Below, one piece after another: positions 1,473 to 45,093 of a stretch of 64,000 nucleotides of DNA; the first letter of the stretch is position 1; each line of letters starts with the position of its first letter. The notes beneath the pieces are model-generated. The model saw nothing but the letters and a program-made list of their open reading frames with translations. It was not told the origin of the DNA and ran no database searches. The stretch lies in NCBI RefSeq assembly GCF_007860105.1, contig NZ_SJPU01000002.1, positions 733,739 to 797,738 of the forward strand, written 5' to 3'. Position numbers and translations under genes: made by a program. This stretch comes from Allorhodopirellula heiligendammensis. Its GTDB lineage: Bacteria; Planctomycetota; Planctomycetia; Pirellulales; Pirellulaceae.

Positions 1473-1855
1473 TTTCGAGTTCCATCTCTTGGAGTCACGG
1501 AATGTGCATCTTTGCTCATTCATTGTTGTCTGGGGTTCCAAACTGGCATTTAGATTCACTAGCAATATCGAGAAGGAGTGAGGCAATACTTGCGAGGTAG
1601 TTGTATCCCCTCGGCGGTGCTGGTGTGAGCCGGTACGTTTGGTTTGGTTACAGGAGATATGTCAATTGGTTTGAACACTTTGTATTTGACTGGGGACAAA
1701 GTCCTTCGCCGAAGGAACTTGCCGTTCGAGCCGGTACGGCTGGATCGCCGAGGCCGACGATCTCGATCAACTCTCCAACCCGTGTAGTCGAGCGGAGCCG
1801 ATTCGTGTTCTCGGTCAGAAGCGTCAACGATAGTCTTGAGATCCAGAACCCGACC

Positions 1856-2012
1856 GCCGAACTCAGGCCGCTAGCAGAACGCAAAGCCGGCACGATGCTC
1901 TCCCAAATGGGCTTGCAGGGCGGTGACCGAAAATCAAATAGTTACGATGACCGTGTGAAACTGAGCGACGTGGGAGTCACCCAAAAACCAGTCCAAACGT
2001 TGGCAGCGAGCA
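1856..2012 (+). pseudogene. Fragment of a ParB-like / DNA-binding protein
   Basis: A plus-strand frame shows a stretch with AERKAGTMLSQM, then GGDRKS, then KLSDVGVTQ. This order is typical of the helix-turn-helix part of ParB-like proteins of phages and mobile elements (pattern: ERxAGxMLxEM, GGDRKS, LSDLGVTKxQSSRWQ). The frame loses the expected SSRWQ part and has no convincing start or N-terminal nuclease domain, so this is a remnant. It lies directly upstream of transposase fragments. Family assignment is by motif memory only. Confidence 0.45.
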
Positions 2013-2094
2013 GCCACCATCTCCGATCGTACCTATTCAGCCGCCTGAAATTGGGATTGGCTAAATCTGGGATTTTCGTTCTGTTTTGCAGATC

Positions 2095-2493
2095 ATGGAC
2101 GGAACCGGAGTCACTATCGTTCTCGATCGTCCGATCGACGTCACCTTGCTCGACAAGGTGATGAACAACCAGCTTAGCGAATGCGATGCGCTCGCGCTGG
2201 AACGTTTAGAACCAGAGATCATCGCGTTCACGATGCTGGCGCTCCAGCAGCGAATCGCCGGGACAACCCAGTCCACCGGACCCAACACGCCTCCATCGAC
2301 GATCCCACCCTTTTCGAAGCCGGCAGCGAAGCCGTCCAAGGGCAAGGAAAAACGTGGCGGGCAAGCTGGCCACACGGGACGAACACGCCCGCCGTTGCCC
2401 GATCCCGATCGCACTCGCGAGCACCAGCACGACCGCTGCCCAGACTGCGACGGCGTAACCGTACACCGGAGCCAGTCAGTGGGGTGGGGTTGA
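2095..2493 (+). pseudogene. IS66-type transposase, N-terminal fragment
   Basis: The frame encodes the N-terminal part of an IS66 transposase: an alpha-helical leader, a Pro/Lys-rich linker with GGQAGHTG, and the first half of the IS66 zinc-binding motif (CPDCDG). After about 130 residues the similarity stops and the frame closes, so the DDE catalytic core is missing. The matching C-terminal piece is nearby but on the opposite strand, so the element has been broken and partly inverted. Confidence 0.65.
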
Positions 2494-2832
2494 CTTCTTA
2501 GGGAGTCGGCGGCGGGCACGGCGGGTTCGTTTGCGGTCGGCGGCGTGGCGACGCTCCTCCGCGCGGTACTCGCGAATCGCTTCGGGGTGATCCGCTTTCC
2601 AGGCGTGCGGTGCCATCGATGACCAGTCCGTCTCCCCGGCAAGCGCTCGACGCAACACGTCATCCAAGTACGCACGTACGTCCAAGTCGTTGCGGATGGC
2701 AGATCCGATAATCGTAAGCAAGTTCGCCGCTCGTTCGCCCGCTGACAGCGATCCTTTGAATAGCCAGTTCTTGCGACCTGTCGCTACGCGCTTCATCAAC
2801 TGTTCGCAGTCATTGTTGTCGATCGGGATCCC
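2476..2832 (-). pseudogene. IS66-type transposase, C-terminal fragment
   Basis: On the minus strand the frame starts at GIPIDNNDCEQ and runs through GRKNWLF, the conserved end of the IS66 DDE domain, then the IS66 C-terminal tail (HAWKADHPE). The N-terminal three quarters are absent. It converges on the plus-strand IS66 N-terminal fragment, with a small overlap at 2476-2493. At its 5' side it is joined directly to an IS4-like start in another frame. Confidence 0.65.
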
Positions 2833-2929
2833 GCTGTGTGCCGACCTCATGCAACAACTGCAGCACTTTGAGGTACTTCAGTCCTTGGACATCTTTGGCA
2901 GCGGGCTTCGGCTTGGATCTTCGGGCCAT
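2828..2929 (-). pseudogene. IS4-type transposase, N-terminal scrap
   Basis: About 34 residues beginning MARRSKPKPAAKDVQG and continuing to LHEVGTQRD resemble the N-terminus of IS4-family transposases found in planctomycetes (GLKYFKLL...LHEVGTQRD). The frame then shifts into the IS66 C-terminal piece and ends. No catalytic residues remain. It marks insertion of one element into another followed by deletion. Confidence 0.4.
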
Positions 2930-3113
2930 TACGTGTGCAGGTACAGCGACACAAGTCAAATTGGCAGTGGGATGGAAGTCTATTGCACGGCGCAAATTTC
3001 GTGCCAATCGCCGCTGCCCACCACTTCTGCTAAGTACCTAAACGCCGTGCCGAACAGTATTGGCTCTGTCCCTATCTATCAAGGTTTCTCCTAGTCCGTC
3101 GTCCTGTCGTAAT

Positions 3114-20604: not shown

Positions 20605-21591
20605 ATGAAGTTTGATCCTGACGACTGGCGAGACTTTGACTGGCGCGACATCGATTGGAATCAAGTGCGAATGCTTTGGCTCGGCGCAGCATTTCTCCTG
20701 GTGTTGGTCGTTTACTCTTGCGTGTACACCGTGCAGGCGGAGTCTGAGGGCGTCGTCCAGCGATTCGGTAAATACGTTCGCAACGCGGAGCCTGGCCTGC
20801 GGTTCAAACTGCCCTTCGGGATCGAACGTGTGTCCATGGTACCCGTGAAGAGACAGTTGAAGCAGGAATTTGGATTTGGATCTGCCAATGCGACGAATCC
20901 GAACCAGTTTTCATCGGAACAGACCCTCGAGCGCGGCATGGTGACCGGCGACCTCAATGCAGCCACGGTTGAGTGGATCATCCAATACCGCGTGCGTGAA
21001 CCCGAACTTTACCTGTTTAAAGTTCGCAATCCCGACAGCACTCTGCGAGCGCTTTCTGAGTCTGTCATGCGTACCGTCGTAGGCGATCGAACTGTCGATG
21101 AGGTCATTACGGTCGGCCGTCAGGAGATCGAAGCTGATGCCCTGATTCAACTGCAGCAGCTCGTCGACAAGTATGAGTTGGGTTTGAGCATCGACCAGGT
21201 GCAACTGAAGAATGTGAACCCGCCACTGCCGGTCCAGCGTTCGTTCAACGAGGTGAACCAGGCTCAACAGGAGCGGGAACAACTCATCAATGTTGCCAAT
21301 GGCGAGTACAACAAAGTCGTTCCCCGAGCGAGTGGCGAAGCGGAACAAAAGATCCAGGCCGCCGAAGGCTACGCTCTGAAGCGGGTCAACGAGGCTGAAG
21401 GCGATGTCGCGCGGTTCAACGCTGTGATGACAGAGTACGTCAAAGCCCCTGAGGTCACCAGACAACGCATCTACATTGAGACCATGCGTCAGATCGTTCC
21501 TAATCTCGGCAAAAAGATCATCCTTGACGAAAGCGCCAGTCAGATCTTGCCGCTATTGCAATTGTCCACCGATTCAACAAAGAACCCATGA
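20605..21591 (+). CDS. hflK: HflK-like SPFH membrane protein
   Basis: A 328-residue protein with a short Asp/Trp-rich cytoplasmic start, one transmembrane segment (about 26-46), then the SPFH/band-7 domain (AESEGVVQRFGKYVRNAEPGLRFKLPFGIE) and a helical, Ala/Glu-rich C-terminus. With HflC it forms the large periplasmic assembly that surrounds and tempers the FtsH protease in quality control of membrane proteins. Its stop overlaps the hflC start (ATGA). The glycine-rich N-terminal extension of E. coli HflK is absent, replaced by a short acidic leader. Identity as HflK rather than another SPFH protein rests on gene order. Confidence 0.9.
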   Translation: MKFDPDDWRDFDWRDIDWNQVRMLWLGAAFLLVLVVYSCVYTVQAESEGVVQRFGKYVRNAEPGLRFKLPFGIERVSMVPVKRQLKQEFGFGSANATNPNQFSSEQTLERGMVTGDLNAATVEWIIQYRVREPELYLFKVRNPDSTLRALSESVMRTVVGDRTVDEVITVGRQEIEADALIQLQQLVDKYELGLSIDQVQLKNVNPPLPVQRSFNEVNQAQQEREQLINVANGEYNKVVPRASGEAEQKIQAAEGYALKRVNEAEGDVARFNAVMTEYVKAPEVTRQRIYIETMRQIVPNLGKKIILDESASQILPLLQLSTDSTKNP

Positions 21592-22556
21592 TGAAAAATG
21601 CACCACTTACCATTCTGGGCGGAATCGGACTGTTCTTGCTGATTCTGTACTTCACCGCGACCTACACCGTGGACGAGACCGAGCAGGTGATCATCACCCA
21701 ATTCGGAAAGCCCGTTGGTGATCCGATCACCGCCGCAGGTCTGCACCTCAAACTTCCGTTCGTCCAAGACGTGACGCGGATCGAAAAACGCATGCTTGAG
21801 TGGGACGGTCGCCCCAATGAAATGCCCACCAAGGATAAAACCTATATTGTTGTCGACACTTTTGGGCGATGGCGAATTAGTGACGCGAAACAGTTCTTTC
21901 TGCGACTGCGAGATGAGCGGAGTGCTCAGTCACGTCTCGACGATATTCTCGGCAGCGAGACTCGCAATGCGATCGCGAAACATGAGCTGATCGAGGTGAT
22001 CAGGACTACCAAGGACCGTGAGCCTAATCAAGATGCCGTGCTCGTCGATGCTCCCGGAAACGTGGGACGTCTCTATCCCATCTCAAAAGGGCGTGCGAAG
22101 ATCGAAGAGGAAATCTATGGCGAGGCAGCTGAGAAGCTATCGGATTTTGGCATCGAGCTGCTCGACGTACGATTCAAGCGGATCAACTACAACGAGAGCG
22201 TACGTCAGCGAATCTATGACCGCATGATCAGCGAACGCCAGCAGATCGCGGAGCGATTTCGTAGCGAGGGCGAAGGCGAAGCCGCGAAGATCCTTGGAAA
22301 GAAGGAACGCGACTTATTGAAAATTGAATCCGAAGCATATAAACGGGTCCAAGAAGTCCAAGGCGAAGCAGACGCGAAGGCCAGCGAAATCTATGCGAGC
22401 GCCTACAACCAAAGCGAGGACTCCGTCGCATTCTATGAGTTCATCAAGACGATGGAGACCTACCAAGAAATGCTCGGGGGCGACAGCACGCTAATCATGA
22501 CCACTGGTAGTGATATCTTCAAATTCCTTAAACACGTCAATCCGCCGAAGCAATAG
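21588..22556 (+). CDS. hflC: HflC-like SPFH membrane protein
   Basis: The 322-residue partner of HflK: an N-terminal transmembrane segment (about 7-26), then TVDETEQVIITQFGKPVGDP and GLHLKLPFVQDVTRIEKR, the characteristic HflC start, with a long helical tail containing SERQQIAERFRSEGEGEA. It anchors in the inner membrane and acts with HflK on FtsH. The gene begins with ATGATG overlapping the hflK stop by four bases. Confidence 0.93.
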   Translation: MMKNAPLTILGGIGLFLLILYFTATYTVDETEQVIITQFGKPVGDPITAAGLHLKLPFVQDVTRIEKRMLEWDGRPNEMPTKDKTYIVVDTFGRWRISDAKQFFLRLRDERSAQSRLDDILGSETRNAIAKHELIEVIRTTKDREPNQDAVLVDAPGNVGRLYPISKGRAKIEEEIYGEAAEKLSDFGIELLDVRFKRINYNESVRQRIYDRMISERQQIAERFRSEGEGEAAKILGKKERDLLKIESEAYKRVQEVQGEADAKASEIYASAYNQSEDSVAFYEFIKTMETYQEMLGGDSTLIMTTGSDIFKFLKHVNPPKQ

Positions 22557-26071: not shown

Positions 26072-26674
26072 TCACTCAGCGTTCTTGGTCCAGGTGAATA
26101 CACGCAGTGGAGGGAGGTTCAGGATCACGTTGGTCACAGTGGGCTTGCCAAATAGCGGTTCGGCGTACGTCACTACATGACTCCTCAGTTGGTAGGCTAT
26201 GAACGTGCCACCGACACTCAAGTCTCGATGAATCGCCTTGATCGTCGACTCGGCGGTTTCGGCATCCAGCGACGAGAATGGAATACCAGATACGATAACG
26301 TCCGGCGACTTGAAATCGTGTATCATTAGGACACGTTCCAAACCTACCACGTCGTCCTGCACGACAGTCAGTCGTGAGTCACCGATTTCCTCTAACGGCT
26401 CAATGAAACCGGTCGCCTTCTCGATTGCCAGTACGCGGCAGTCCGGGCCAGCATGTTTGAGCAAACGCTCGGTAGTGCCTCCGGTGCCAGGCCCGAGGTC
26501 GACGATCCGCTGAGCCGATCGTACACAGTCGCGATCAGCAATCTGCTCAGTGAGAAACGGAAAGCTGGGAATGATCGATGCGACTTGCGACGGACATCGC
26601 AGCCACTCTTTCATCACAGCAATGGCGCGAGTCCAATAAGGACGACGACGGGGAATTGCGGCTTGGCTTGTCAT
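26072..26674 (-). CDS. SAM-dependent methyltransferase, phospholipid N-methyltransferase-like
   Basis: A 200-residue class I methyltransferase. Motif I is IVDLGPGTGGTTERLL, followed by an acidic end of strand 2 (AIEKATGF), and motif IV is VIVSGIPFSSLD. The order and the ending ILNLPPLRVFTW recall PmtA-type phosphatidylethanolamine N-methyltransferases and relatives of rRNA dimethylases. The likely role is methylation of membrane lipid at the cytoplasmic face, but the acceptor is inferred only. The ATG at 26674 was preferred over a longer frame to 26731. It lies downstream of the ferritin-like gene on the same strand, with a strong hairpin between. Confidence 0.78.
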   Translation of the reverse strand: MTSQAAIPRRRPYWTRAIAVMKEWLRCPSQVASIIPSFPFLTEQIADRDCVRSAQRIVDLGPGTGGTTERLLKHAGPDCRVLAIEKATGFIEPLEEIGDSRLTVVQDDVVGLERVLMIHDFKSPDVIVSGIPFSSLDAETAESTIKAIHRDLSVGGTFIAYQLRSHVVTYAEPLFGKPTVTNVILNLPPLRVFTWTKNAE

Positions 26675-26708
26675 CAATAGGTGCCTGTAGGTGGTGAGTC
26701 TATAAGGA

Positions 26709-26739
26709 GACGCCGCGTGGCGCGAGTCCACGCGGCGTC
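26709..26739 (-). terminator. Strong hairpin, 12-bp perfect stem
   Basis: gacgccgcgtgg (26709-26720) and ccacgcggcgtc (26728-26739) enclose a seven-base loop, 14 bases after the stop of the ferritin-like gene. On the minus strand the stem is followed by tccttat, a weak T-rich tail. It probably ends or attenuates transcription before the methyltransferase gene. Confidence 0.65.
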
Positions 26740-26752
26740 AAATGTTCGTGAT

Positions 26753-27247
26753 TCAACCAGTGGCCAGTGCATCCTTGTTAATCGCCTTGGCCAGCTGCGA
26801 AAGTTTCTCATCGGCCGCTTCTTCCTCATCAATATTCTGTTTGAGCAGCTTCAGTGCATTGTCATATCCGAGAGCTTTCGCCCAGGTGCATAGCGTTCCA
26901 TAGGTCGCAATCTCGTAGTGCTCAACTTTCTGCGCACAGGCGATGATGACGGCGTCCTTGACGGCCGGTTCAGCGTCTTCCTTGAGCATGTCCTCGGCTT
27001 CAGTAATCAAGCCCTTCATAGCCTCGCAAGTTTTTGCCTTGGCAGCTTTACCGGTATCCTGGAATGCCTTTTCAACTCGCTGGACCTGTTCTTCTGTTTC
27101 TGTCAGATGGTCTTGAAGGGCTTTCGTGAGCTTCTCGCACGACGCGTTTTTGGCCATCTTTGGGAGGGCCTTCACTAACTGCTTCTCCGCGCTAAGGGCG
27201 TCGCGAAGTTCATCATAGAATGCATCGGCTAAGGTTTTCATCGACAT
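26753..27247 (-). CDS. DUF892 ferritin-like stress protein (YciE/YciF family)
   Basis: A 164-residue all-helical protein beginning [27 protein letters not shown], the usual DUF892 opening. It contains the Glu and His residues expected of a ferritin-like di-metal four-helix bundle (for example [10 protein letters not shown]). Members are induced by osmotic, oxidative or starvation stress; the enzymatic role is not settled. The gene leads a minus-strand unit with the methyltransferase and neighbours other stress-type genes. Confidence 0.93.
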
Positions 27248-27835
27248 TTGGATACTCCATTAGAAAGGGGAAGTCTGGTTTGAGTTCTTGATGGCTGCGT
27301 GTAAGCGATTTTCGTGCCAAAGGCTGGTCAACTGTGCGGCGTTGCCTTGGGATGATGATGGGCCCGCAATCTTCCGAATGGGCATCGATTCTGAAATGTT
27401 GAGAGGAAGATTGCCATGGTACGAGCGACTGCCACGCACCACGTTGACCAAGCTGGACGACAAACTACCATCGCAGATCTTGCGTCGAGCAATTCTCTAT
27501 TGAAGACATCACACGAGCCAGGATTCGGTGAGGACGTCACATATCGAACATCTCATGACTCGATGTTCGTTACCCGACGAACCTGAAAGCGAACCAATGC
27601 TTTGTCGATTTCACCGGCCTTGCAAGAGTTGCCGACATGTCTCGCGTTTCATGTCAGATCCAGTCCGTTGGAAACGTCGAGGATGGCCGGTGGCGATACT
27701 ATGAATGCATCAAGAAGGTTGGGCGAGCAATTAGCGACGCGGCGAAGTTTGCCGCCGGCCTGACACGCGGTGCTGGTTTCTGGCGCATCACCGCCTTCCA
27801 GCTCGCTATCCAATTGAGCGGCGAAAGGCTCGTAG
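27248..27835. other. Intergenic region, no gene recognised
   Basis: A 588-bp gap between two minus-strand genes. Short frames exist on both strands, but none has a ribosome site together with a recognisable family or conserved-looking composition. The promoter of the ferritin-like gene should lie at its left end. Confidence 0.35.
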
Positions 27836-28294
27836 CTACTGATCTGCCGCCACGAATGCGGCATCGGGGTCCGCGTGAATACCGTCTCGAGAAATGATTC
27901 GCTCGAAGTCACCTCGTAGCGCCTTCAGTGCATATCGCTCTTCATTGATCTCGGCAGACGTGCGAAATCCCATGCGGCGTAAAATTGGTAGCGGCGGACA
28001 CCAACCCTGCAAAGCGTGCTGGAACAGAAAGCCCGTCACTAAACCTGGTAATAGCAACCATCGCTTGTCGACGGTTGCGGATAATAGCACACCGGAGAAC
28101 GCCAGCGCTGAGGCATTGCACTCGAGTGCCCGCTCAATGTCCCACTCTTGATTGAGTTCCAGGATACGGCGTGAGATTACTTGTGGCGGTTGTGTCGAGT
28201 AGTGCGCGATTCGATTCTGAGTTTCGCGCGCGATCGATTCATTGATCGCTTGGTGGGTGTGTTGTTCAACTCGGTGATTGGTTGCGGGCAACAT
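27836..28294 (-). CDS. DUF2892-type small membrane protein
   Basis: A 152-residue protein. The N-terminal 60 residues are soluble and helical; then IERALECNASALAFSGVLLSA and LLPGLVTGFLFQHALQGW form the two membrane helices of the DUF2892 (YgaP-tail-like) fold, followed by PPLPILRRMGFRTSAEINEERYALKALRGDF, the typical planctomycete ending. Function unknown; such proteins sit next to stress or sulfur-transfer genes. The ATG at 28294 has an excellent AAAGGAGAGG ribosome site, so the longer frame to 28327 is unlikely. Confidence 0.8.
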   Translation of the reverse strand: MLPATNHRVEQHTHQAINESIARETQNRIAHYSTQPPQVISRRILELNQEWDIERALECNASALAFSGVLLSATVDKRWLLLPGLVTGFLFQHALQGWCPPLPILRRMGFRTSAEINEERYALKALRGDFERIISRDGIHADPDAAFVAADQ

Positions 28295-28531
28295 AGTTCC
28301 TCTCCTTTGTTCGCGAAGGTCTGACATGAGCTTGGACGGCTGGCATCTTGAAGGATGCCTGACTAGATCGGCAATTCTTGCGCCATTAACGGAGATTTGG
28401 TACAGAAAATGCCAGTCGTTTACCGTCGTTGGGCATGGTTGCGTGACCGGAAATTATGCGGTTCGACAAGCTTCCCAATCAAGTTCCCACTTCGCACAGA
28501 TCTCACACTCTTAGAAAACAGGAAACGGACC

Positions 28532-29041
28532 ATGTCAAACAAGAAACCAGCTCACGATGAAACCCGTGAAGAGCTTCGCAACGAAGATGCGATTACCGGA
28601 GAACCTGGATCCCATCCGGTTGGGACGGGCCTGGGGGCGGCTCTTGGCGGAGCGGCTGCCGGAGCTGCCGCAGGCACGGTAGCGGGCCCCATCGGGACCG
28701 TCGCCGGAGCGATTGTCGGTGGGGTCGCAGGCGGGTACGGTGGCAAAGCCATTGCGGAGAGCGTCGACCCGACGATCGAGACGGCGTACTGGGAGGAACA
28801 GCACGCGAGTCGCCCCTACTACAACGACACTTACGACTACGAGCAGTACCGCACGGCGTATCAATCTGGTTGGGAAGCCTTCGACGCTGACGCCAACGAC
28901 GAGTGGAATAGTCGCGAAGCCATCGCTCGAAAACAATGGGAAGATGCCGGCGGTGGCGAACACATGACGTGGGAGGAAGCTCGCCCGGCAGCGCTCGATG
29001 CGTACACTCGAGTCCAGAACCGGACCAGTAAGCCCAAATAG
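28532..29041 (+). CDS. Glycine-zipper stress protein
   Basis: A 169-residue protein. After a polar start of about 25 residues comes a Gly/Ala-rich segment (GTGLGAALGGAAAGAAAGTV and onwards, about 30-68) that forms a glycine zipper able to insert in membranes. The C-terminal 100 residues are acidic and aromatic, with repeated W/Y and WEEARPAALDAYTR-like helices. Proteins of this layout occur next to DUF892 and DUF2892 genes in stress clusters. The start at 28532 was chosen because it follows ggaaacggacc and gives the usual polar N-terminus. Biochemical role unknown. Confidence 0.78.
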   Translation: MSNKKPAHDETREELRNEDAITGEPGSHPVGTGLGAALGGAAAGAAAGTVAGPIGTVAGAIVGGVAGGYGGKAIAESVDPTIETAYWEEQHASRPYYNDTYDYEQYRTAYQSGWEAFDADANDEWNSREAIARKQWEDAGGGEHMTWEEARPAALDAYTRVQNRTSKPK

Positions 29042-29183
29042 TCCCGGGCAGCCTCGGCCACACTGGCTCGACGCTATTCGTGTCGCGCACACCTGTATGC
29101 TACGGCGCGACTGGACGGTTGAAGAATTGATCGGGGCCTAGGCGCCGATCGCGACATTCTAAGATGCGAAAAGGAGAGGCTTG

Positions 29184-29972
29184 ATGAAGATTGATCTACG
29201 TGGTCGGGTCTATGTCGTCACTGGCGGCAGTGACGGTATCGGCAAGGGGATTGCAGAAACGGTCGCGGAATGCGGCGGCAAAGTGGCGATCATCAGTCGC
29301 GACGAGCATGCCATGCAATCTGTCGTTCAGGCTATTGGAGCTGCTGGCGGTGAGGCGTTCTATGCTGCCGCCGATGTGTCGAAAAACGATCAGATGCGAG
29401 ATGCCTTCCGATCGATCGTCGATCACTTTGGAAGCATCGACGGGGTCGTGGCGAACGCAGGGACCAACGGAACCTGGGCACCCGTTGATGAATTGACGCT
29501 GGAGGACTGGGAGCGCACGATAAACGTGAACCTCACTGGGACGTTTCTGACAGTTCATCACAGCGTGCCCTATCTACGCGATCGAGGTGGCGGCAGCATC
29601 GTCATTATTTCATCGATCAACGGAACCCGTACATTTACCAATGAAGGTGCGTCTGCCTACGCGACCAGCAAAGCGGGCCAATTGGCTTTCGGGAAGATGC
29701 TCGCGTTGGAACTCGCCAAGTCAAAGATCCGCGTCAACATCCTGTGTCCTGGCGGAATCAAATCCAACATCCACCAGAAAACAGAGCGTGATAATCTCGA
29801 AGCGATTGAGATTCCCGTCAATTATCCTGAGGGCGAGATTCCGCTAACTGCTGGTGAGATGGGAGATCCTATCGATGTCGCCGCGATGGCCGCATTCTTG
29901 CTCAGTGACCTTGCTTCGCACATCACGGGGACTCCCGTTTGGATTGACGGCGGACAATCCCTGCTGCAATAG
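29184..29972 (+). CDS. Short-chain dehydrogenase/reductase (SDR)
   Basis: A 262-residue classical SDR. Visible are the nucleotide-binding TGGSDGIGKG near residue 14, the NAG motif (VVANAGTNG), the catalytic YATSK (YxxxK), and a C-terminal DGGQSLL end. Its substrate is not evident; relatives oxidise or reduce sugars and 3-oxoacyl groups. ATG at 29184 follows aaaaggag at the right distance; a TTG one codon earlier is less likely. It lies inside the stress-type gene cluster. Confidence 0.9.
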   Translation: MKIDLRGRVYVVTGGSDGIGKGIAETVAECGGKVAIISRDEHAMQSVVQAIGAAGGEAFYAAADVSKNDQMRDAFRSIVDHFGSIDGVVANAGTNGTWAPVDELTLEDWERTINVNLTGTFLTVHHSVPYLRDRGGGSIVIISSINGTRTFTNEGASAYATSKAGQLAFGKMLALELAKSKIRVNILCPGGIKSNIHQKTERDNLEAIEIPVNYPEGEIPLTAGEMGDPIDVAAMAAFLLSDLASHITGTPVWIDGGQSLLQ

Positions 29973-30114
29973 CGGATTGCTGACTTTAACTGAGATCGCT
30001 TATGCGAACACGCCGCTGATGTAGACCACCTTGTACTTGTCTACTCTGATGGCGGATACACCGTTCGCGAAGGCTGAGGCGAGCACATCCCAGCTCTGGC
30101 GGTCGCGGCTGAGA

Positions 30115-31722
30115 CTAGTCAGCTGGAGAGTTCCCATCGAGCTGAGCCAAACCGTTGCCGGTCGGATCACAGATGTCACAGCGGCAAGGAGTGCGACCGA
30201 GCGTCCGTTCATCTTCAAAGTGATCGAGCAGAGCTGCCCATCGACAACTGCGGCTCTCTGCATAGTTGACCATTTGGCGCACGGCGATTTGACGATTCTC
30301 GGCGCGGTGTTGCCCTTGGCGAGCTAAATCGTCTGTCACATCATGGTCAATCACGTCGACCACGCACCGCCAACGTCCTCGTCCTGCTGGCGATACGAAT
30401 CCGCGTGAGGCGAGCTGTTGTAGACAACTCGTTAGAGTAGGCCGGCCGAGAGCGCTGATTTTCTTAAGTTCGGATAACGACACCGTACCGTCATCGGAAC
30501 CCCACCGCTCGATCCCCTGCTGAAGACAATGATGGGCGGTATTGAGCTGCGATGAATCGAGATGTCCGCCCGCGAACATCTTCAACACGTCTACATCAGC
30601 AGGGTCATACAGAAGTGTGCAATTGGCATTCTTGCCGTCTCGCCCTGCTCGGCCGACCTCCTGATAGTAGGCTTCCAAGGACCCCGGCAGGCTATAGTGA
30701 ATGACACGTCGAATATCCGCCTTGTCAATTCCCAAACCAAACGCGTTGGTGGCAAACATCACCCCGGGCGGACCATCCATGAACGCTTGATATGACTTCA
30801 ACCGGTCGGCGGTCTTCATCTTGCCATGGTAGCCCATAACCGGCATCTTCATATCGGCAAAACGATCACGCAGCCGATCGACTTCTTTCGTCGTATTGCA
30901 GTAGATAATTGCCGGCTCATTCCCAATGAGCGAATCATCCGCAGTCAGTAGTTCGCGAACTTTGGCATCCTTTTCGTTCACTCCTGAGCACGGCAGAACC
31001 GCAAGCCGCAGATTGGGCCGAAACACTCCACTGGAGACAATGACGGGATCGTCGAGGCCAAGGGAATAGACAATGTCATCAATCATGGCGGGAGATGCGG
31101 TTGCTGTCATGGCCAGAAGCGGTGGATTACCTAGACGCTTGCGAGCGTGCTGCAAACAAAGGTAGTCTGGACGGAAGTCATGTCCCCATTGACTCACACA
31201 ATGCGCCTCGTCGACAACGAAGAAATCAACACCGATCTCGCCCAGCAAGTCACAGAGATCTGTCTGCTGCAATCGCTCTGGCGTCGTGAAAACAAACTCT
31301 GTTTTCTTCGATTGCAAGTCGTCGCGAAATTGCTGGATTTGCCGCGCCGACTTGGAACTATTGAAAATCGCTGCTTCGATCCCGTTATCGCGAAGGCTTG
31401 CCGCTTGATCTTCCGCCAAGGATATCAGCGGACTGACGACGACCGTCACGCCCTCGAGTTCGAGTCCTGGAAGCTGGTAGCAAAGACTTTTCCCGGATCC
31501 AGTTGGCATCAATATCAGGGTATCGCGACCCTCCATGGCAGCACGGCAAGCTTTTGTCTGTCCCGGGCGGAAGCGAGTGAATCCAAATGCTGTCTCGAGT
31601 CGCTGATGGAGATTCGACCAGCGTCCCGTGGGTAGGGATGACCGCTGGTCTCCAGGTAGCCTGGACCTGTGCGAATCATTGGCAGGGGTTTCGACAACGA
31701 CGCTTTCAGTTTCTTGATCCAC
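30115..31722 (-). CDS. RecQ-type ATP-dependent DNA helicase
   Basis: A 535-residue 3'-5' DNA helicase. The N-terminal RecA-like domains have Walker A GSGKS (75-79), the DEAH box (171-174), the aromatic-rich loop SQWGHDFRPDY, and in domain 2 GLGIDKADIRRVIHYSLP and QEVGRAGRDG. The C-terminus has a winged-helix-like part (about 405-460) and then a zinc cluster of four cysteines (C493, C513, C515, C518). No HRDC domain follows. It probably unwinds DNA in repair, as other RecQ proteins do. The start is GTG at 31722. It is transcribed away from the plus-strand membrane-protein pair. Confidence 0.93.
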   Translation of the reverse strand: MDQETESVVVETPANDSHRSRLPGDQRSSLPTGRWSNLHQRLETAFGFTRFRPGQTKACRAAMEGRDTLILMPTGSGKSLCYQLPGLELEGVTVVVSPLISLAEDQAASLRDNGIEAAIFNSSKSARQIQQFRDDLQSKKTEFVFTTPERLQQTDLCDLLGEIGVDFFVVDEAHCVSQWGHDFRPDYLCLQHARKRLGNPPLLAMTATASPAMIDDIVYSLGLDDPVIVSSGVFRPNLRLAVLPCSGVNEKDAKVRELLTADDSLIGNEPAIIYCNTTKEVDRLRDRFADMKMPVMGYHGKMKTADRLKSYQAFMDGPPGVMFATNAFGLGIDKADIRRVIHYSLPGSLEAYYQEVGRAGRDGKNANCTLLYDPADVDVLKMFAGGHLDSSQLNTAHHCLQQGIERWGSDDGTVSLSELKKISALGRPTLTSCLQQLASRGFVSPAGRGRWRCVVDVIDHDVTDDLARQGQHRAENRQIAVRQMVNYAESRSCRWAALLDHFEDERTLGRTPCRCDICDPTGNGLAQLDGNSPAD

Positions 31723-32301
31723 TGGGACACTTTGCGATTAGTTTGTTGAAGGAAGCGTTTCGATGATACGTCACCGAATGGATAGCTTCACAAATGCGGC
31801 GATACGCAACTGGTGTGCCAAGGTGGACACAGATGTGCCATAGCAGTTGATGCGTTCCATCCTACTCCGCGTGGCGATCCACACCGAAACGTCTCCAAGC
31901 AAAGCTGCCTTGTGATGTCACTGCGAACCCTCTGGTACAAGAAATGCTACACCGCGTCGTGAGAACTGTTTGCGTCTCGGTCTGGACGAACACGGTCTCC
32001 TTCCGGGGAGCCCTTCGAGACTCCCAACTAGATCAAAGTGCGGTAACACCCTTCATGGTCATTCCTTTCATGGTTGAGTTTACTCATTGCGCAATCGCCT
32101 TGAGCCGGTTCGAGCTTCACGCATCTCGGGGATGCGCAACCAAGACAGGGCACCTCCCAGCAGGGCGGATTCACAACATTACTACGTTTTCGTTTCTGCG
32201 TGTCGCCGTTCGTCGGCACCTCAGCAGGTCGGGCAAACTCTTGGTCGGCAGCCATGTCCGAGCGGTGTTGCTGACCGCGATCTCGAGTCTGACGCCAGCC
32301 C
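31723..32301. other. Divergent intergenic region, no gene recognised
   Basis: A 579-bp gap between the helicase gene (minus) and the TIGR02587-type gene (plus). It should hold both promoters. A short direct repeat (ttcatggt, near 32051 and 32065) is visible, but nothing that suggests a gene or structured RNA. Confidence 0.35.
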
Positions 32302-33153
32302 ATGAATGACGCTACTGACTCCTCGAACAAATTTTTGACTGGACTTGCGAGAGCATCAGGCGGAGCATTGTTGTTCTCGCTGCCGATGCTACTGACGATG
32401 GAGATGTGGTGGCTGGGCTTCACGATGCCAGCGATGCGGCTGGCCGTGCTCCTCGCCGTGACTCTGCCGACACTGATGGGGCTGGCCTACTACAGTGGCT
32501 TCGAAGTTCCTCAGGGTTGGGTGGGAACCGTCGTTGATGCATTTGTCGCATATTGCGTTGGCATTGTTGTCGCTTCCAGCGTTCTTGTGCTTATCGCAGT
32601 CATTCGATCCAGTGAGACCATGTTCAGCGAGGGCTTGGGAAAGATCGTTCTGCAAGCGATTCCAGCAAGTTTTGGGGCCGTGCTGGCGTCAAGCCAGTTC
32701 GGTGATGACAATGACAATGGGAGAAGACACGAGCCAAATGGGCATGCGCATCATGATCTCGGATGTTATTTCCGTGAATTGTTCTTGATGTTCGCCGGAG
32801 CGATCTTCCTGGCTTTCAACGTCGCGCCGACTGAAGAGATGCTTGTGATTGCCTTGAAGATGACGGCGTGGCATGCCATTGCCATGGGGCTGTGTTCGCT
32901 CGTCGTCATGCATGCGTTTGTTTTCGTGGTCAAGTTTCGCGGCCAGGAAGCGGTGCCGGATGAGTCATCCCAAGGCAGTGTCTTCCTACGATTTACCATT
33001 CCGGGGTATGCCATCGCTCTACTTGCCAGCCTGTTTTGCTTGTGGGTCTTCGGCCGGCTCGAGGATACTGCGTTGGAAGAAACGCTCATGGCAACGATGG
33101 TGCTCGCGACGCCAGCCGCCGTTGGAGCAGCCGCAGCGAGACTGGTTTTATGA
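32302..33153 (+). CDS. TIGR02587 family integral membrane protein
   Basis: A 283-residue membrane protein with about eight hydrophobic segments and a His-rich loop (HEPNGHAHHDLG) in the middle. The start (GLARASGGALLFSLPMLLTMEMWW) is the hallmark of the TIGR02587/DUF2391 family. Function unknown. The stop overlaps the start of the next gene (ATGA), and that gene encodes the TIGR02588 protein that regularly accompanies this family. Confidence 0.88.
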   Translation: MNDATDSSNKFLTGLARASGGALLFSLPMLLTMEMWWLGFTMPAMRLAVLLAVTLPTLMGLAYYSGFEVPQGWVGTVVDAFVAYCVGIVVASSVLVLIAVIRSSETMFSEGLGKIVLQAIPASFGAVLASSQFGDDNDNGRRHEPNGHAHHDLGCYFRELFLMFAGAIFLAFNVAPTEEMLVIALKMTAWHAIAMGLCSLVVMHAFVFVVKFRGQEAVPDESSQGSVFLRFTIPGYAIALLASLFCLWVFGRLEDTALEETLMATMVLATPAAVGAAAARLVL

Positions 33154-33551
33154 TGACAGAAAAAGATGATCGTGCGGATCAGCCAACGCAGAATGGCATT
33201 CCTGTCGCCGAGTGGATTGTGGCGGCGGTCGGTGGAGTGCTGGTCATTGCCTCGTTCCTGTTTTTGGCATACCGCGCCGTCAGTGAACGCGAACCCGCCT
33301 CGTTTGAGTTCACGATCGAAGAGATCCAACGCGTGCAGCAACAGTTGGTGGCGACTGCCTCTGTACACAACCGCGGTGGTCAGCCCGTCGCAGACCTGCG
33401 TTTGCGTGCGATTTGCAAGCGAGATCAGGTGAAAGAAGTTGTTATCGAATATGTTCCCGCAAAATCATCCAGGCGAGTTACATTTTACTTCGACGATGCG
33501 GACGTGGACGCCCCCATCGAGTTCGTCGTCGATTCTTTTACGGAGCCTTAG
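33150..33551 (+). CDS. TIGR02588 family membrane-anchored protein
   Basis: A 133-residue protein with one N-terminal transmembrane segment (about 17-42) and an extracytoplasmic beta-sandwich-like domain (FEFTIEEIQRVQQ ... VHNRGGQPVADL ... SSRRVTFYFDD). This layout matches TIGR02588, whose genes are found directly after TIGR02587 genes. The ATG at 33150 overlaps the preceding stop by four bases, so it is translationally coupled. Function unknown. Confidence 0.85.
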   Translation: MMTEKDDRADQPTQNGIPVAEWIVAAVGGVLVIASFLFLAYRAVSEREPASFEFTIEEIQRVQQQLVATASVHNRGGQPVADLRLRAICKRDQVKEVVIEYVPAKSSRRVTFYFDDADVDAPIEFVVDSFTEP

Positions 33552-33555
33552 AAAA

Positions 33556-34155
33556 ATGGCAGAGCAGAGAGAAGATCGCTCACTCCATGGAAGTGTTCCC
33601 GATCAAAGTGACGTGGCGCTCTTGATCATCGATGTGATCAATGATCTGGAGTTTGATGACGGCGACAAACTTCTCCAGTTCGCACTTCCGATGGCAGAAC
33701 GCCTCGCAGAGCTACGACAGCGATTCCGCGACACAGGCTTGCCGGTCGTTTACGCTAACGACAATTTTGGGAGGTGGCGTTCAGACTTTCGGGTGCAAGT
33801 CGACCACTGCTTGAACGAGGGTGTCCGCGGAAAGCCCATTGTGGAACTATTGCGGCCACACGACGATGACTACTTTGTGCTCAAACCCAAGCACTCGGCA
33901 TTCTATGCTACAACGTTGGACGTATTGCTGGAACATCTGCAGGTCCGGAGCTTGGTCATTACTGGGGTCGCTGCCGATATCTGCGTGCTATTCACCGCCA
34001 ATGATGCGTACATGCGTGACTTCGACATCGTCATCCCGTCCGACTGCGTGGCGGCGAACACACGTCAGCAGTCCGACGTCGCGTTGCAATTGATGCACCG
34101 GGTATTGAAGGCGGATATCCGTCCGTCAAGTCAATTGTTGAGGAGTATCGGTTGA
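33556..34155 (+). CDS. Isochorismatase-family cysteine hydrolase
   Basis: A 199-residue cysteine hydrolase. The catalytic triad is visible: Asp in LLIIDVINDL, Lys in VLKPKHSAF, and Cys in GVAADICVLFTANDAYMR. The fold serves isochorismatases, nicotinamidases and ureidohydrolases; the substrate here is not evident. It follows the TIGR02588 gene by four bases and so belongs to the same operon, the third gene of a compact unit. The start at 33556 fits this spacing. Confidence 0.88.
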   Translation: MAEQREDRSLHGSVPDQSDVALLIIDVINDLEFDDGDKLLQFALPMAERLAELRQRFRDTGLPVVYANDNFGRWRSDFRVQVDHCLNEGVRGKPIVELLRPHDDDYFVLKPKHSAFYATTLDVLLEHLQVRSLVITGVAADICVLFTANDAYMRDFDIVIPSDCVAANTRQQSDVALQLMHRVLKADIRPSSQLLRSIG

Positions 34156-34484
34156 AACTGACCGTCACCAGTGCAAACTCGACTTGCCGCAACACCAACA
34201 GCACTCTCGGCTATAGCGGAGTCGCATTGCTCGTAGAACTGCTGGTGCTTCGGCGAGTTGCGACTGCGTTATACAGTGGCGAATGGACGATTCTGCTCAA
34301 TCCCGAGCGAAGGACCACTATTGACGCGGGAGTTCCAGAAACGGAATCGTGTAGCCAAAGCATCCACGTCAGTTCGCTGCTCGCGCAGCGAGCCGCTCTC
34401 TTTTCGGCCGAAGACGACGTGGCTTGCGGGAGATCAGCCGTGCAGGACTTCATTGCGCAGGCGGACACCCCTCCGTTAAGCCGG
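34156..34484 (+). other. Region between convergent genes, no gene supported
   Basis: A plus-strand frame starting TTG at 34152 and running to 34625 overlaps the hydrolase stop, but it invades the opposite-strand nuclease gene by 141 bases and matches no family I know. I do not call it a gene. Confidence 0.3.
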
Positions 34485-35624
34485 CTAATCCTCCTTCGGC
34501 TGATCAAGGGCACCAGGTTCGTTCAATGCCTCTACCGCTGCCTCGGCGTCTTCTGCGTCGCCGGCGTCAAGATGCGGAGCCGACTGCGTCGCCCGTGCCT
34601 CCGGTTCGTGGCTAAGGATCACTGACAACGGCAGGTGGTCAGAACCAATTGGCGGCAGAGTTCGCAACGAGACTACCCGAAAATCTTTGGAATGAAAAAG
34701 ATGGTCGAGCGGGTATCGCCAAATCCAAGATTTCGCATTGAAAGTCGCGTAAAGACCGCGACCTTTTCGCGGATCAAGTAAGCCGCTGACCTCCTGAAAC
34801 AGGTCTGTGGTTCGAGACCATCCGACATCGTTCATGTCCCCGAGTACGATGACGCTCTCGCTATCGCGGACGTCCCGTCCCACCAAGACCAACTCACCAT
34901 CTCGTTTTGTCGTATCTTCGCCGGGACGTGGTGGATTAGGATGGACAGCAAACAAGCGGACGGAATGACCCGACGCAAGTTGAATCTCAGCGTCGATCGA
35001 AGGAATTGTCTCCTTCACCATGGCTCGAACTTCGCCGGATACCAGTTCGAGATTGGTGTAGAGTGCGATGCCGTACTTGTTCTCCAAAGGATGCTCGATG
35101 TGATGTTGAAATTGTTCACGAAGCGGCGCTAGATCCTCAATCCAACGTTGGTTGACTTCGCACAGCACGCACACGTCCGGTGACTCGGACTTGACCAACT
35201 GAACTAAGGCTGACGCATCCGTATTATCTTGCAGCACATTCGCTGTCAATATTTGCAGACGAGTGGACGAGTCGTCGGACTTGGCCGGCTGGACTTGATA
35301 AGGAGCGACAGGCAGGTATGGGAACACCCAGTAAAGCTGAATGCAGATGCTAGCGACCAGCAGCCCCGCCGCTACTTTGGCATACGGCTGACTGAGCATG
35401 AACGCCACGATGACCAGGCACACCAAATACGAGACTAAGAGCTGCACGCGCGGAAAGTCACCGATCCGAACCCACCACCAATCGACAGGCAGTAACGGAA
35501 CAAACGCTGTGGCGATCAGCACGCTGGCAATCGCGAGAACAAGGAACGTCAACATTGGGGTGTGTCTCGCTGCAATCGATTCAACGTCATTCTCGCCTCT
35601 GGTAGATTTGGGCAGTGATGGCAT
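34485..35624 (-). CDS. Membrane-anchored endonuclease/exonuclease/phosphatase-family protein
   Basis: A 379-residue protein. Three hydrophobic segments in the first 105 residues anchor it, then a DNase I-like metal-dependent hydrolase domain follows. Its motifs are LTANVLQDN, VCVLCEVNQ (catalytic Glu), FAVHPNPP, VLGDMNDVGWS and the final IGSDHLPLSV with the Asp-His pair. Relatives include the YafD-type group. It is unknown whether DNA or a phosphoester is cleaved. The last 40 residues are acidic and Ala/Glu-rich. A second Met at 35555 could also start it. Confidence 0.85.
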   Translation of the reverse strand: MPSLPKSTRGENDVESIAARHTPMLTFLVLAIASVLIATAFVPLLPVDWWWVRIGDFPRVQLLVSYLVCLVIVAFMLSQPYAKVAAGLLVASICIQLYWVFPYLPVAPYQVQPAKSDDSSTRLQILTANVLQDNTDASALVQLVKSESPDVCVLCEVNQRWIEDLAPLREQFQHHIEHPLENKYGIALYTNLELVSGEVRAMVKETIPSIDAEIQLASGHSVRLFAVHPNPPRPGEDTTKRDGELVLVGRDVRDSESVIVLGDMNDVGWSRTTDLFQEVSGLLDPRKGRGLYATFNAKSWIWRYPLDHLFHSKDFRVVSLRTLPPIGSDHLPLSVILSHEPEARATQSAPHLDAGDAEDAEAAVEALNEPGALDQPKED

Positions 35625-43238: not shown

Positions 43239-45093
43239 TCAAGCGAAGCTTGATGAAGGTTTCGCGGTTGGCTGCGGAGTTTCTCGGCGCGCAGCTCCCA
43301 CCGCCCCAGCGACGCTGGTGGTGAATTTTGGTGGGTGAGTTGCTCATCGTCGAGTGGCTTTTTTGGGTTAGGCGTTGACGGCGGTATCAGTGCATCCAGA
43401 CACTGACTTCGTTGAGACCACGCCCGTCAGCAACGCAGCGGACGACGGATGTTGGAATTAATTAGCAGTAGAACATCAACCGATGGCCGGTAGCTCAGCA
43501 AGCGGTACACCAAGGTCCGACTGCGGCGGATGATTTGAGCAGGGACCATCAAGATGCGGTCGCGGAAGGTTCGGAAGTCCATCCCGATCACGCGTGATTT
43601 TGTCGCTGCTTGATCGATACGTTCTTGCTCCGTCCCGCTGGGCTTGATCAGCAGACCTGACCAAACTTTTAAATTCCAAGCCAATGATGCGATCACCATG
43701 TAGGCCCAGTTGCTTGTCAGATCGCTCAGCGGTGCGCTCAGGCAACACTGCTTCAGTTGGGCGATGTTGTTCTCTTGATCGCATCGTGCGTTGGCGTCGA
43801 CGACCACCTGGCGCGGCGACTTCATCTTCTTCGTCGCGTTAGTGATGTAGAAAAAGTAGACCGGCTGTTCCTTATCGAACAACCTCATCTGCCCGCGAGT
43901 CAAATGTACTTCTTTGTGAAGCACCACCACGCGGTAGGTCCTGTTGCACTTGCCCGGTTGATAGTCGAACTCAGCGATTCGTTCGCTGGCAAGTTTCTTG
44001 TTGAGGTAGCCATTCCTGACGACGATCTGTTCTTTAAATCGAGGCCGCCGTGCCCGTGGTTTCTCCACCGCCGGCTTCTGGCTACGCCTTCGTTTCATCG
44101 CCTTCCACGCCGAAGAGTCAAGGTTTTCAGCAATTTCGACCAATTTGGGCATCGCGTCGATACCAAAGACAAACTCGACGTTGTCAGCATCCCAACGATC
44201 GAAATTTTCGGTCAACGCGAAGTCGGTGTCACCTCGCAGCACGATCTTGCGGAAGCCTGCGTCGCGGCAACGCTGGACGGCCAAATCAAAATAGAATGCA
44301 GAGTTCTCGTGGCTGGGGCGGTTGCCGCTGCGGTTGGCGATAAACAGTGGCTCACGCGTGTTGGCTAACGTCACCACCAGCGGATGGTAGCCCCACTGGC
44401 CTTTGTAGTTGATGCCGATGCCCTGCTTTCGTTCGCCCGAAGTTTCGACCTGGGTTCCGTCGGCTTCGATGACGGCGCAGTCGAAGAACTCATCGGACTG
44501 CTGTTTCCAAACTTTCTCACGGACACGATTGAAGGCACTCATCAAGCTGAGCACGTGTCTGTCATTGAACCGGCGACAGAAGTCACCTGCGGTGGTTGGG
44601 TCAGGAATGCGATGGGCGCCGACCGCGTTGAGATAAGCTTCATCCTGTCGCCGGTCTTCGAGGTGATCCAAGCAGTTGCCACCGGCAAGAAGATTCAGCG
44701 AAATATTTAGAACGTGATCGGCCTCATCGTAAGGGAGATGCATTTTGAATAACTTAATGGCGCGGTTGATTTCGCCCCGCAGATCGAGTTGCTTGGTGAG
44801 CTGCAGCATCGCCCCGATGCCACCGGCCGCGATCGCTTGCTGCTTCTCGGCGAGTTCATAACTGATAGCAGGCGGTGTGATCATTGGCGACGACCAAGGC
44901 CCCTCAAACTTATCGATTCGGCGTCGCATTTTTCGCTTGCGTTCTTTGACTTTTCGTCGTAGCTTAGCGTTCACTCGAAACCCTCGTTTGCGTGCGTGGA
45001 TGGAAGGGGTAGTAACCTCCAATACACGCGTAAAACGCCGAGGGTTTTCGAGTTTTTCAGTTAAATAGAAAATCAAGCTTCGCTTGATTAAGG
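43233..45093 (-). mobile_element. Complete IS1380-family insertion sequence (1,861 bp)
   Basis: The element is bounded by perfect 22-bp inverted repeats (ccttaatcaagcgaagcttg..., 43233-43254 and 45072-45093), each of which also contains an internal palindrome (atcaagc gaa gcttgat). The six bases cctagt stand directly outside on both sides (43227-43232 and 45094-45099), as expected for a target-site duplication. One transposase is encoded on the minus strand. Intact ends and frame suggest a recent, perhaps active copy. Confidence 0.92.
43427..44974 (-). CDS. IS1380-family DDE transposase
   Basis: A transposase of about 515 residues. Characteristic pieces are GGIGAMLQLTKQLDL, ADHVLNISLNLLAGGNCLDHLEDRRQDE, the first catalytic Asp region (AVIEADGTQVETSG), the second (VVLRGDTDFALTENFDRW) and the Glu region (DANARCDQENNIAQLKQC). 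The frame is open into the right inverted repeat (TTG at 45076), but GTG at 44974 has a GAGGG site six bases before it and is the better start. Basic N-terminal helices probably bind the inverted repeats. Confidence 0.92.
   Translation of the reverse strand: MNAKLRRKVKERKRKMRRRIDKFEGPWSSPMITPPAISYELAEKQQAIAAGGIGAMLQLTKQLDLRGEINRAIKLFKMHLPYDEADHVLNISLNLLAGGNCLDHLEDRRQDEAYLNAVGAHRIPDPTTAGDFCRRFNDRHVLSLMSAFNRVREKVWKQQSDEFFDCAVIEADGTQVETSGERKQGIGINYKGQWGYHPLVVTLANTREPLFIANRSGNRPSHENSAFYFDLAVQRCRDAGFRKIVLRGDTDFALTENFDRWDADNVEFVFGIDAMPKLVEIAENLDSSAWKAMKRRRSQKPAVEKPRARRPRFKEQIVVRNGYLNKKLASERIAEFDYQPGKCNRTYRVVVLHKEVHLTRGQMRLFDKEQPVYFFYITNATKKMKSPRQVVVDANARCDQENNIAQLKQCCLSAPLSDLTSNWAYMVIASLAWNLKVWSGLLIKPSGTEQERIDQAATKSRVIGMDFRTFRDRILMVPAQIIRRSRTLVYRLLSYRPSVDVLLLINSNIRRPLRC

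Follow-up and report, generated by a model that had tools for sequence, protein, structure and literature searches.

What brings ten genes for stress, envelope and DNA-repair proteins together within 9.5 kb of the genome of Allorhodopirellula heiligendammensis (7.18 Mb, the own genome below), and did they arrive there as one block? The genes lie at positions 26,072 to 35,624 of a 64,000-nucleotide stretch of contig NZ_SJPU01000002.1 (733,739 to 797,738, forward strand), which is called the window here, the ten-gene part being the island. Along the island follow genes for a methyltransferase (MT), a DUF892 protein, a DUF2892-like protein, a Gly/Ala-rich protein (GlyZip), an SDR-family oxidoreductase, a RecQ-family helicase, a TIGR02587 protein with its TIGR02588-like partner, a cysteine hydrolase (CHyd) and an EEP-domain protein. 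A preliminary description of the window had read them as a horizontally acquired envelope and oxidative-stress module in which RecQ and a nuclease handle damage. All ten genes were confirmed in place by reading of open reading frames (ORFs) and by Pfam and NCBIfam searches, and the interpretation is supported in part. The control of the island appears to hold more interest than its origin: the island is probably a mosaic general-stress cluster that forms part of a predicted sigma-54 regulon, with the TIGR02587/88 pair recruited into it and RecQ belonging to it by regulation.

Sigma-54 promoters carry -24/-12 elements with the consensus TGGCACG-N4-TTGCW, in which GG and GC stand ten bases apart. 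In an alignment of the GlyZip intergenic regions of five genomes, two conserved boxes are readable as such elements placed back to back. What was computed are the gene set, the sites resembling promoters, the return of such sites in other genomes, and the clustering described below; five sites were found in the island (Table 1), all with GG-N10-GC and each deviating from the consensus at other positions. Matrix scores of at least 12 were reached in 5/8 upstream regions of the island versus 0/23 in the flanks (Fisher p 3e-4), and scores of at least 10 in 5/8 versus 2/23 (p 0.006). The flank set held 31 ORFs, eight of them unscored for having fewer than 60 bases upstream; the doubtful ORF 2061-2675 was omitted, though it counts as flank in the composition test, and its inclusion gives 1/24 (p 0.0015) and 3/24 (p 0.012), respectively. 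The island regions with no site are those of MT and SDR, each just behind a gene on the same strand, and of EEP, whose top site scores just 9.8.

Table 1 Genes of the island and their predicted sigma-54 promoters; positions are those of the window.
Feature	Position	Strand	Basis
MT, S-adenosylmethionine (SAM) methyltransferase of PmtA/OlsG type	26072..26731	-	RrnaAD/FtsJ-type SAM fold; below curated cut-offs
DUF892 / YciF-type ferritin-like stress protein	26753..27247	-	PF05974, E 4e-53, residues 1-157 of 159
Predicted promoter TGGCACGAAAATCGCT of DUF892, perhaps of MT too	27304..27319	-	Score 15.2; sites also before DUF892 homologues
DUF2892-like small membrane protein, weakly YgaP-like transmembrane	27836..28327	-	Only PF11127, E 0.0076, below cut-off
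Predicted promoter TGGCGCAAGAATTGCC of DUF2892-like gene	28370..28385	-	Score 12.7; conserved box in GlyZip intergenic alignment
Predicted promoter TGGTACAGAAAATGCC of GlyZip-SDR	28398..28413	+	Score 12.1; back to back with TGGCGCAAGAATTGCC; kept in 5 aligned genomes
GlyZip, Gly/Ala-rich protein (glycine-zipper-like by eye)	28532..29041	+	No family above cut-off
SDR-family oxidoreductase	29184..29972	+	NF004203 above cut-off
RecQ-family helicase with RecQ zinc-binding domain	30115..31722	-	TIGR00614, 370 bits (cut-off 219.8); PF16124 (RecQ_Zn_bind)
Predicted promoter TGGCACACCAGTTGCG of RecQ	31805..31820	-	Score 14.3
Predicted promoter TGGTACAAGAAATGCT ahead of TIGR02587	31933..31948	+	Score 14.7
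TIGR02587/DUF2391 membrane protein	32302..33153	+	E 3e-85, 285.9 bits (cut-off 183.7)
TIGR02588-like partner	33153..33551	+	E 3e-10, 40.1 bits, under 95-bit cut-off
CHyd, isochorismatase-type cysteine hydrolase	33556..34155	+	PF00857, E 2e-35; ATG at 33556
EEP-domain protein, apparently membrane-anchored, doubtful member	34485..35624	-	PF03372

The same type of site recurs at homologues of these genes. Of the upstream regions of 77 homologues from other genomes, 44 score at least 12, and one does so with the reversed matrix; by family the counts are MT 8/11, RecQ 6/7, GlyZip 4/4, DUF892 13/22, DUF2892-like 7/12, SDR 3/6, CHyd 1/2 and EEP 2/13. None of the 77 had been fetched when the matrix was set; DUF892 and GlyZip had by then been viewed in other genomes. 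Omitted were regions from earlier sets, fragments (DUF892 G006:C46; DUF2892-like G010:C2; EEP G010:C7; SDR G010:C12; MT G005:C1; G numbers denote genomes), MT of G036, G021 and G035, and EEP and SDR of G031. In a hand-picked mixed set of 47 upstream regions, which includes those of the neighbours KatE, PfpI, FAD oxidase, DUF421, a CsbD-like gene, a lipoprotein and a longer SDR, 23 score at least 12, versus 19/248 other genes of the same loci; a repeat count of this background gave 19/247, and 2 with the reversed matrix. MT of G004 (16.3) and CHyd of G048 (8.1) were left out of the 47 and scored later, and one DUF892 region (G010a) rises from 3.6 with 300 bases upstream to 13.1 with 450. The 19 background genes with sites include those for a Mn-catalase (17.2), an AI-2E transporter, a DUF421-type protein and a VKOR/SPW protein; one of the 19 sites is the GlyZip site of G001, scored before an overlapping longer ORF.

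Control of the island by sigma-54 is probable. Each of five units would lie behind its own predicted -24/-12 promoter, namely DUF892 (perhaps with MT), the DUF2892-like gene, GlyZip-SDR, RecQ, and TIGR02587-TIGR02588-CHyd, and all units could be turned on together by one or several enhancer-binding ATPases that respond to stress. The genes would belong to a stress-gene pool whose members reassemble in varying combinations in related genomes; TIGR02587/88 would be an outside pair captured under sigma-54 control, and RecQ would share the regulon while located elsewhere in relatives. We infer the use of sigma-54, the operon limits, induction by stress, and a role in membrane and oxidative protection.

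That the shared promoter is real and the regulon serves nitrogen, surface life or the cell cycle in place of stress appears unlikely. Sigma-54 takes part in many processes, no activator has been found for the island, and of the 12 sites that match the strict consensus TGGCACNNNNNTTGCW in the own genome one precedes csrA; however, another of the 12 precedes a catalase, and sites stand at catalases, PfpI, DUF892, the Mn-catalase and the CsbD-like gene (an assignment by eye, with its NCBIfam match under cut-off). The stress label given to the cluster in the preliminary description is supported: in relatives the island families recur near catalases, PfpI, DUF421, MgtC, VKOR/SPW and the CsbD-like gene, and RecQ shares the promoter type. 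A further strict site of the own genome (L191, G000:C6:15093) lies about 300 bases before the gene for a 192-residue protein, which has no Pfam match and is general-stress-protein-like by eye; a 60-residue ORF separates the site from that gene.

YciF/KatN-type genes of enterobacteria are general-stress genes under RpoS. The likeness lies in the DUF892/YciF protein, in the grouping of stress genes and in a Mn-catalase, whose gene in G054 is some 6 kb away from DUF892; the difference lies in RpoS there, and in predicted sigma-54 sites and other partner genes here. The transmissible locus of stress tolerance (tLST) is likewise a stress-gene cluster with a history of transfer, but it consists of other genes, and block transfer is not seen here.

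Published work already hints at control of stress genes by sigma-54 in planctomycetes, and the present finding extends known kinds. In the parts of PMC12316311 used here, UspA, chaperones, MscS and csrA are predicted under sigma-54 in Planctomycetia, and csrA of Pirellula sp. strain 1 is reported with sigma-54-dependent promoters, with which the strict site before csrA in the own genome agrees. The parts of PMC2754498 used here mention that a thioredoxin of R. baltica induced by stress has been proposed to have a sigma-54 promoter, give rpoN of R. baltica as RB6491, report rpoH, rpoE and rpoN as unregulated under heat on the array, and propose a markedly different cascade; both papers cite Studholme and Dixon 2004. 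RecQ, COG0514, COG3685, COG0753 and catalase are not mentioned in the main text of PMC12316311, and no report of such a cluster, or of RecQ under sigma-54, was found among titles and abstract openings. To the regulons predicted in PMC12316311 (as far as used here), the mosaic cluster and the putative TIGR02587/88 capture are added.

A wider proposal is put forward tentatively, as a possibility that falls somewhat short of an even chance: sigma-54 may act as the general-stress sigma factor in these planctomycetes, its regulon, scattered but clustered in places, held together by promoters and not by position, with genes of other phyla, TIGR02587/88 for one, recruited behind sigma-54 sites. Its members would include DUF892, glycine-zipper-like proteins, catalases, PfpI, CsbD-like proteins, the lipid methyltransferase and a dedicated RecQ. 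The general stress response of planctomycetes is poorly known, and with a sigma-54 regulon it could be put to a direct test; if true, stress genes would pass from phylum to phylum and be rewired to a different sigma factor, and a RecQ helicase would gain a place in a stress regulon.

Several points weigh against a sigma-54 stress regulon. The matrix was built by hand on the consensus given above, at a point when the alignments of GlyZip and DUF892 had already been viewed. The number of sites scoring at least 11.5 in the window is 12, versus 8.2 expected from a first-order Markov model, so that position before genes matters and not number; the top site of the window (2991, minus strand, score 16.5) lies outside the island, upstream of ORF 2061-2675 and beside transposase remnants. 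The 12 strict sites of the own genome compare with 8 for a reversed control, so that strict matches alone are near chance. Homologues are not independent samples, the RecQ genes with a site all come from one genus, and most CHyd homologues elsewhere score below 12. The last base of TGGTACAAGAAATGCT lies 353 bases ahead of TIGR02587, and this long leader makes its assignment to TIGR02587 less sure; read-through from DUF892 into MT is unsure because a strong hairpin lies between both genes. No common activator site was found for the island units, dyad counts being not above those of shuffles, and no sigma-54 activator motif was found in 480 kb scanned near clusters, a small part of the genomes. 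In R. baltica, according to the same parts of PMC2754498, rpoN is not heat-regulated and goes down under salt, and extracytoplasmic function (ECF) sigma factors respond to stress.

The preliminary description had also taken the genes as a set, and a chance neighbourhood of unrelated housekeeping and accessory genes with no common control is one alternative. Gene orientations are mixed, EEP has no site, the window holds a near-random number of sites, and two families never recur near another, RecQ in 0/30 genome-pairs (among the matches listed) and SDR in 0/34. Even so, such a chance neighbourhood is improbable: across 59 relatives, a distance of at most 10 kb was found for 18 out of 148 genome-pairs of island families, versus 0.7 expected at random places, and the promoter type is common to five units and to homologues elsewhere. 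Seven of the nine families searched recur near another, so that grouping as a set is borne out above chance for these and not for RecQ or SDR. The most frequent pairings are DUF892 with GlyZip (3/7), DUF892 with CHyd (3/9), EEP with MT paralogues (3/10) and GlyZip with MT (2/5). The pairs are not independent, since 7 of the 18 come from a single genome, G008. The count was made on strong homologues, with the own genome excluded and TIGR02588 not among the families searched; matches retained were 10/49 for CHyd, 18/40 for EEP, 18/59 for MT, 15/18 for DUF2892-like, 11 of more than 150 for RecQ, and all for DUF892 (34/34), GlyZip (11/11), SDR (9/9, E 1e-60 or better) and TIGR02587 (2/2). With the own one counted, 10/60 genomes have a GlyZip homologue.

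Gene order differs from relative to relative. G006 has CHyd, KatE, DUF892, an FAD oxidase, TIGR02587, TIGR02588 and PfpI, with short ORFs interspersed; G008 has MT, DUF2892-like, a longer SDR, GlyZip, one further gene, an FAD oxidase with Rieske domain and DUF892; in G054, DUF892 and CHyd adjoin LigD, Ku and PolX, with a Mn-catalase a little further. A large protein (L078, 15242-17839), encoded some 3 kb away from the stress cluster of G006, is phage tail tape-measure-like by eye.

RecQ plausibly belongs to the predicted regulon by regulation and not by linkage. Its homologues sit elsewhere in their genomes yet carry the site, 6/7 further ones scoring at least 16; RecQ of G001, G008 and G025 scored low in a first set, and for G001 a site was found at the called start. 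Sites are absent at RecQ of G008, G025 and G003. Capture of the RecQ promoter on joining the island was dropped as an explanation, given the sites at 6/7 further homologues and at the called start of G001, and RecQ was retained as a regulon member only, not as a linked one. The related idea that RecQ and the nuclease handle damage stands for RecQ as far as its regulation makes it plausible, and lacks the linkage. For EEP no sign of a role as repair nuclease is seen and its membership is doubtful: the protein looks membrane-anchored, a sequence search for PDB relatives gave none at E 0.01, and its homologues are mostly without a promoter (also 1/2 with a site in the mixed set). Since about three hydrophobic segments, seen by eye, precede the PF03372 domain and no PDB relative was found at that threshold, 'nuclease' is here a label of fold only.

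In some relatives, clusters of this kind take in further repair genes: G054 has PolX-Ku-LigD, and G010 has PdeM, a ligase and a ligase-associated helicase; in the latter these and an EEP homologue lie within about 11 kb of DUF892-GlyZip. The G054 locus (L088, 1452-10150) is a stress cluster with end-joining repair, in the row Mn-catalase (sigma-54-like site 17.2), a gene with no Pfam match, PolX, Ku, LigD, DUF892 and CHyd. The G010 locus (L082, 2957-17486) holds YihY, CsbD-like, EEP, PdeM, ligase-associated helicase, ligase and a putative DNA-repair radical SAM protein, then DUF892-GlyZip.

The TIGR02587/88 pair looks like the only part of the island acquired from outside the phylum, as it is rare within the phylum and has many loci elsewhere. 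TIGR02587 exceeds its cut-off in 2/60 relatives (own genome and G006) and in 1/392 genomes of the phylum (own), where three more matches are partial and below cut-off; other organisms, for the most part Alphaproteobacteria, gave 75 loci. In a tree of 42 of the 77 TIGR02587 proteins available, those of the window and G006 pair (100/99) with no resolved sister. A TIGR02588 partner lies near TIGR02587 in 69/72 loci, the 72 being those of the 75 fetched in which the TIGR02587 ORFs fell into a cluster. Of the neighbour clusters that do not overlap the pair, the next reaches 15 loci at most, other clusters being ORFs that overlap it, and of the other island genes SDR occurs nearby in 6 loci, DUF892 in 1 and RecQ in 1 (G006 apart). 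In the preliminary description both members had been named; TIGR02587 is over cut-off and TIGR02588 under it, though its position directly behind TIGR02587 fits. The model of TIGR02587 is all-helical (pLDDT 88), a fold search of the PDB matched nothing at or below E 0.001, and a literature search found no paper on it.

Elsewhere TIGR02587 looks like a stress gene under another sigma factor. The promoter motif of EcfG is GGAAC-N16/17-GTT. Searched from 350 bases upstream to 60 bases into the ORF, a loose form of it was found at 26/72 TIGR02587 loci, not all of them alphaproteobacterial, versus 107/1377 other ORFs (reversed control 2/72), and a strict form at 11/72 versus 50/1377 (p 1e-4; reversed control 0/72), most loci having no site. 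This enrichment in EcfG-like sites is the likeness to the alphaproteobacterial EcfG general stress response (PMC3892343, in the parts used here); the difference is that TIGR02587 of the window lies behind a predicted sigma-54 site. A rewiring of TIGR02587 from EcfG to sigma-54 is what we infer from the enrichment elsewhere.

Horizontal acquisition of the whole set as an envelope and oxidative-stress module with its own repair genes, as first described, is very unlikely and was rejected as a block transfer: the distribution of TIGR02587, the close relatives of several genes outside the genus (in G025, DUF892 84% and EEP 62%) and slight shifts in GC3 (0.604 in the island versus 0.626 in the flanks, p 0.046) and codon score (p 0.015) favour it, but GC is 0.552 in both (ten island genes, 32 flanking ORFs), nearest genomes, locations, neighbours and arrangements differ gene by gene (the G006 order being an example), only TIGR02588 recurs beside TIGR02587 with the other island genes scattered, and the window has no tRNA and only distant transposase traces. 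The comparison of composition asked for with that description thus gave equal GC with small GC3 and codon-score shifts, and no recent foreign block is visible in composition. The closest matches are in G010 and G025 for DUF892, G008 and G018 for MT, G008 and G048 for CHyd, and G025 for EEP. A tRNA search of the window left the island with no boundary tRNA, and a Pfam scan of 30 ORFs of the window, a part of the total, gave no integrase family. A DDE transposase (PF13701) at 43427-45076 is some 8 kb past the end of the island. Some 23 kb before the island, at about 1600-3000, IS66-like transposase fragments in several frames were seen by eye.

Most earlier gene labels hold, and some need to be softened. 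MT resembles OlsG (66 bits, cut-off 350) and PmtA (42 bits, cut-off 250), its top NCBIfam matches, and 'lipid-methyltransferase-like' keeps that likeness but stays far from the curated cut-offs; the genes labelled 'DUF2892' and 'glycine zipper' are present, and neither reaches one. PF11127 is taken by us to be the former DUF2892. In the PDB, DUF892 has four relatives of YciF type, none weaker than E 1.2e-36, including 4eru and 2gs4, and RecQ has the PDB relatives 4tmu and 1oyw by sequence search. CHyd was searched as 33577-34155 and not as the full ORF from its ATG. Rfam matched no RNA element in the window. Between DUF892 and MT, an inverted repeat (26709-26739; 71-nt fold of -30.2 kcal/mol, z -5.1), with no T run behind it, may be a terminator, attenuator or stabiliser. 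Before the island, at 20605-22556, two Band-7/SPFH membrane proteins are encoded side by side, directly upstream of a DUF7133 cytochrome gene.

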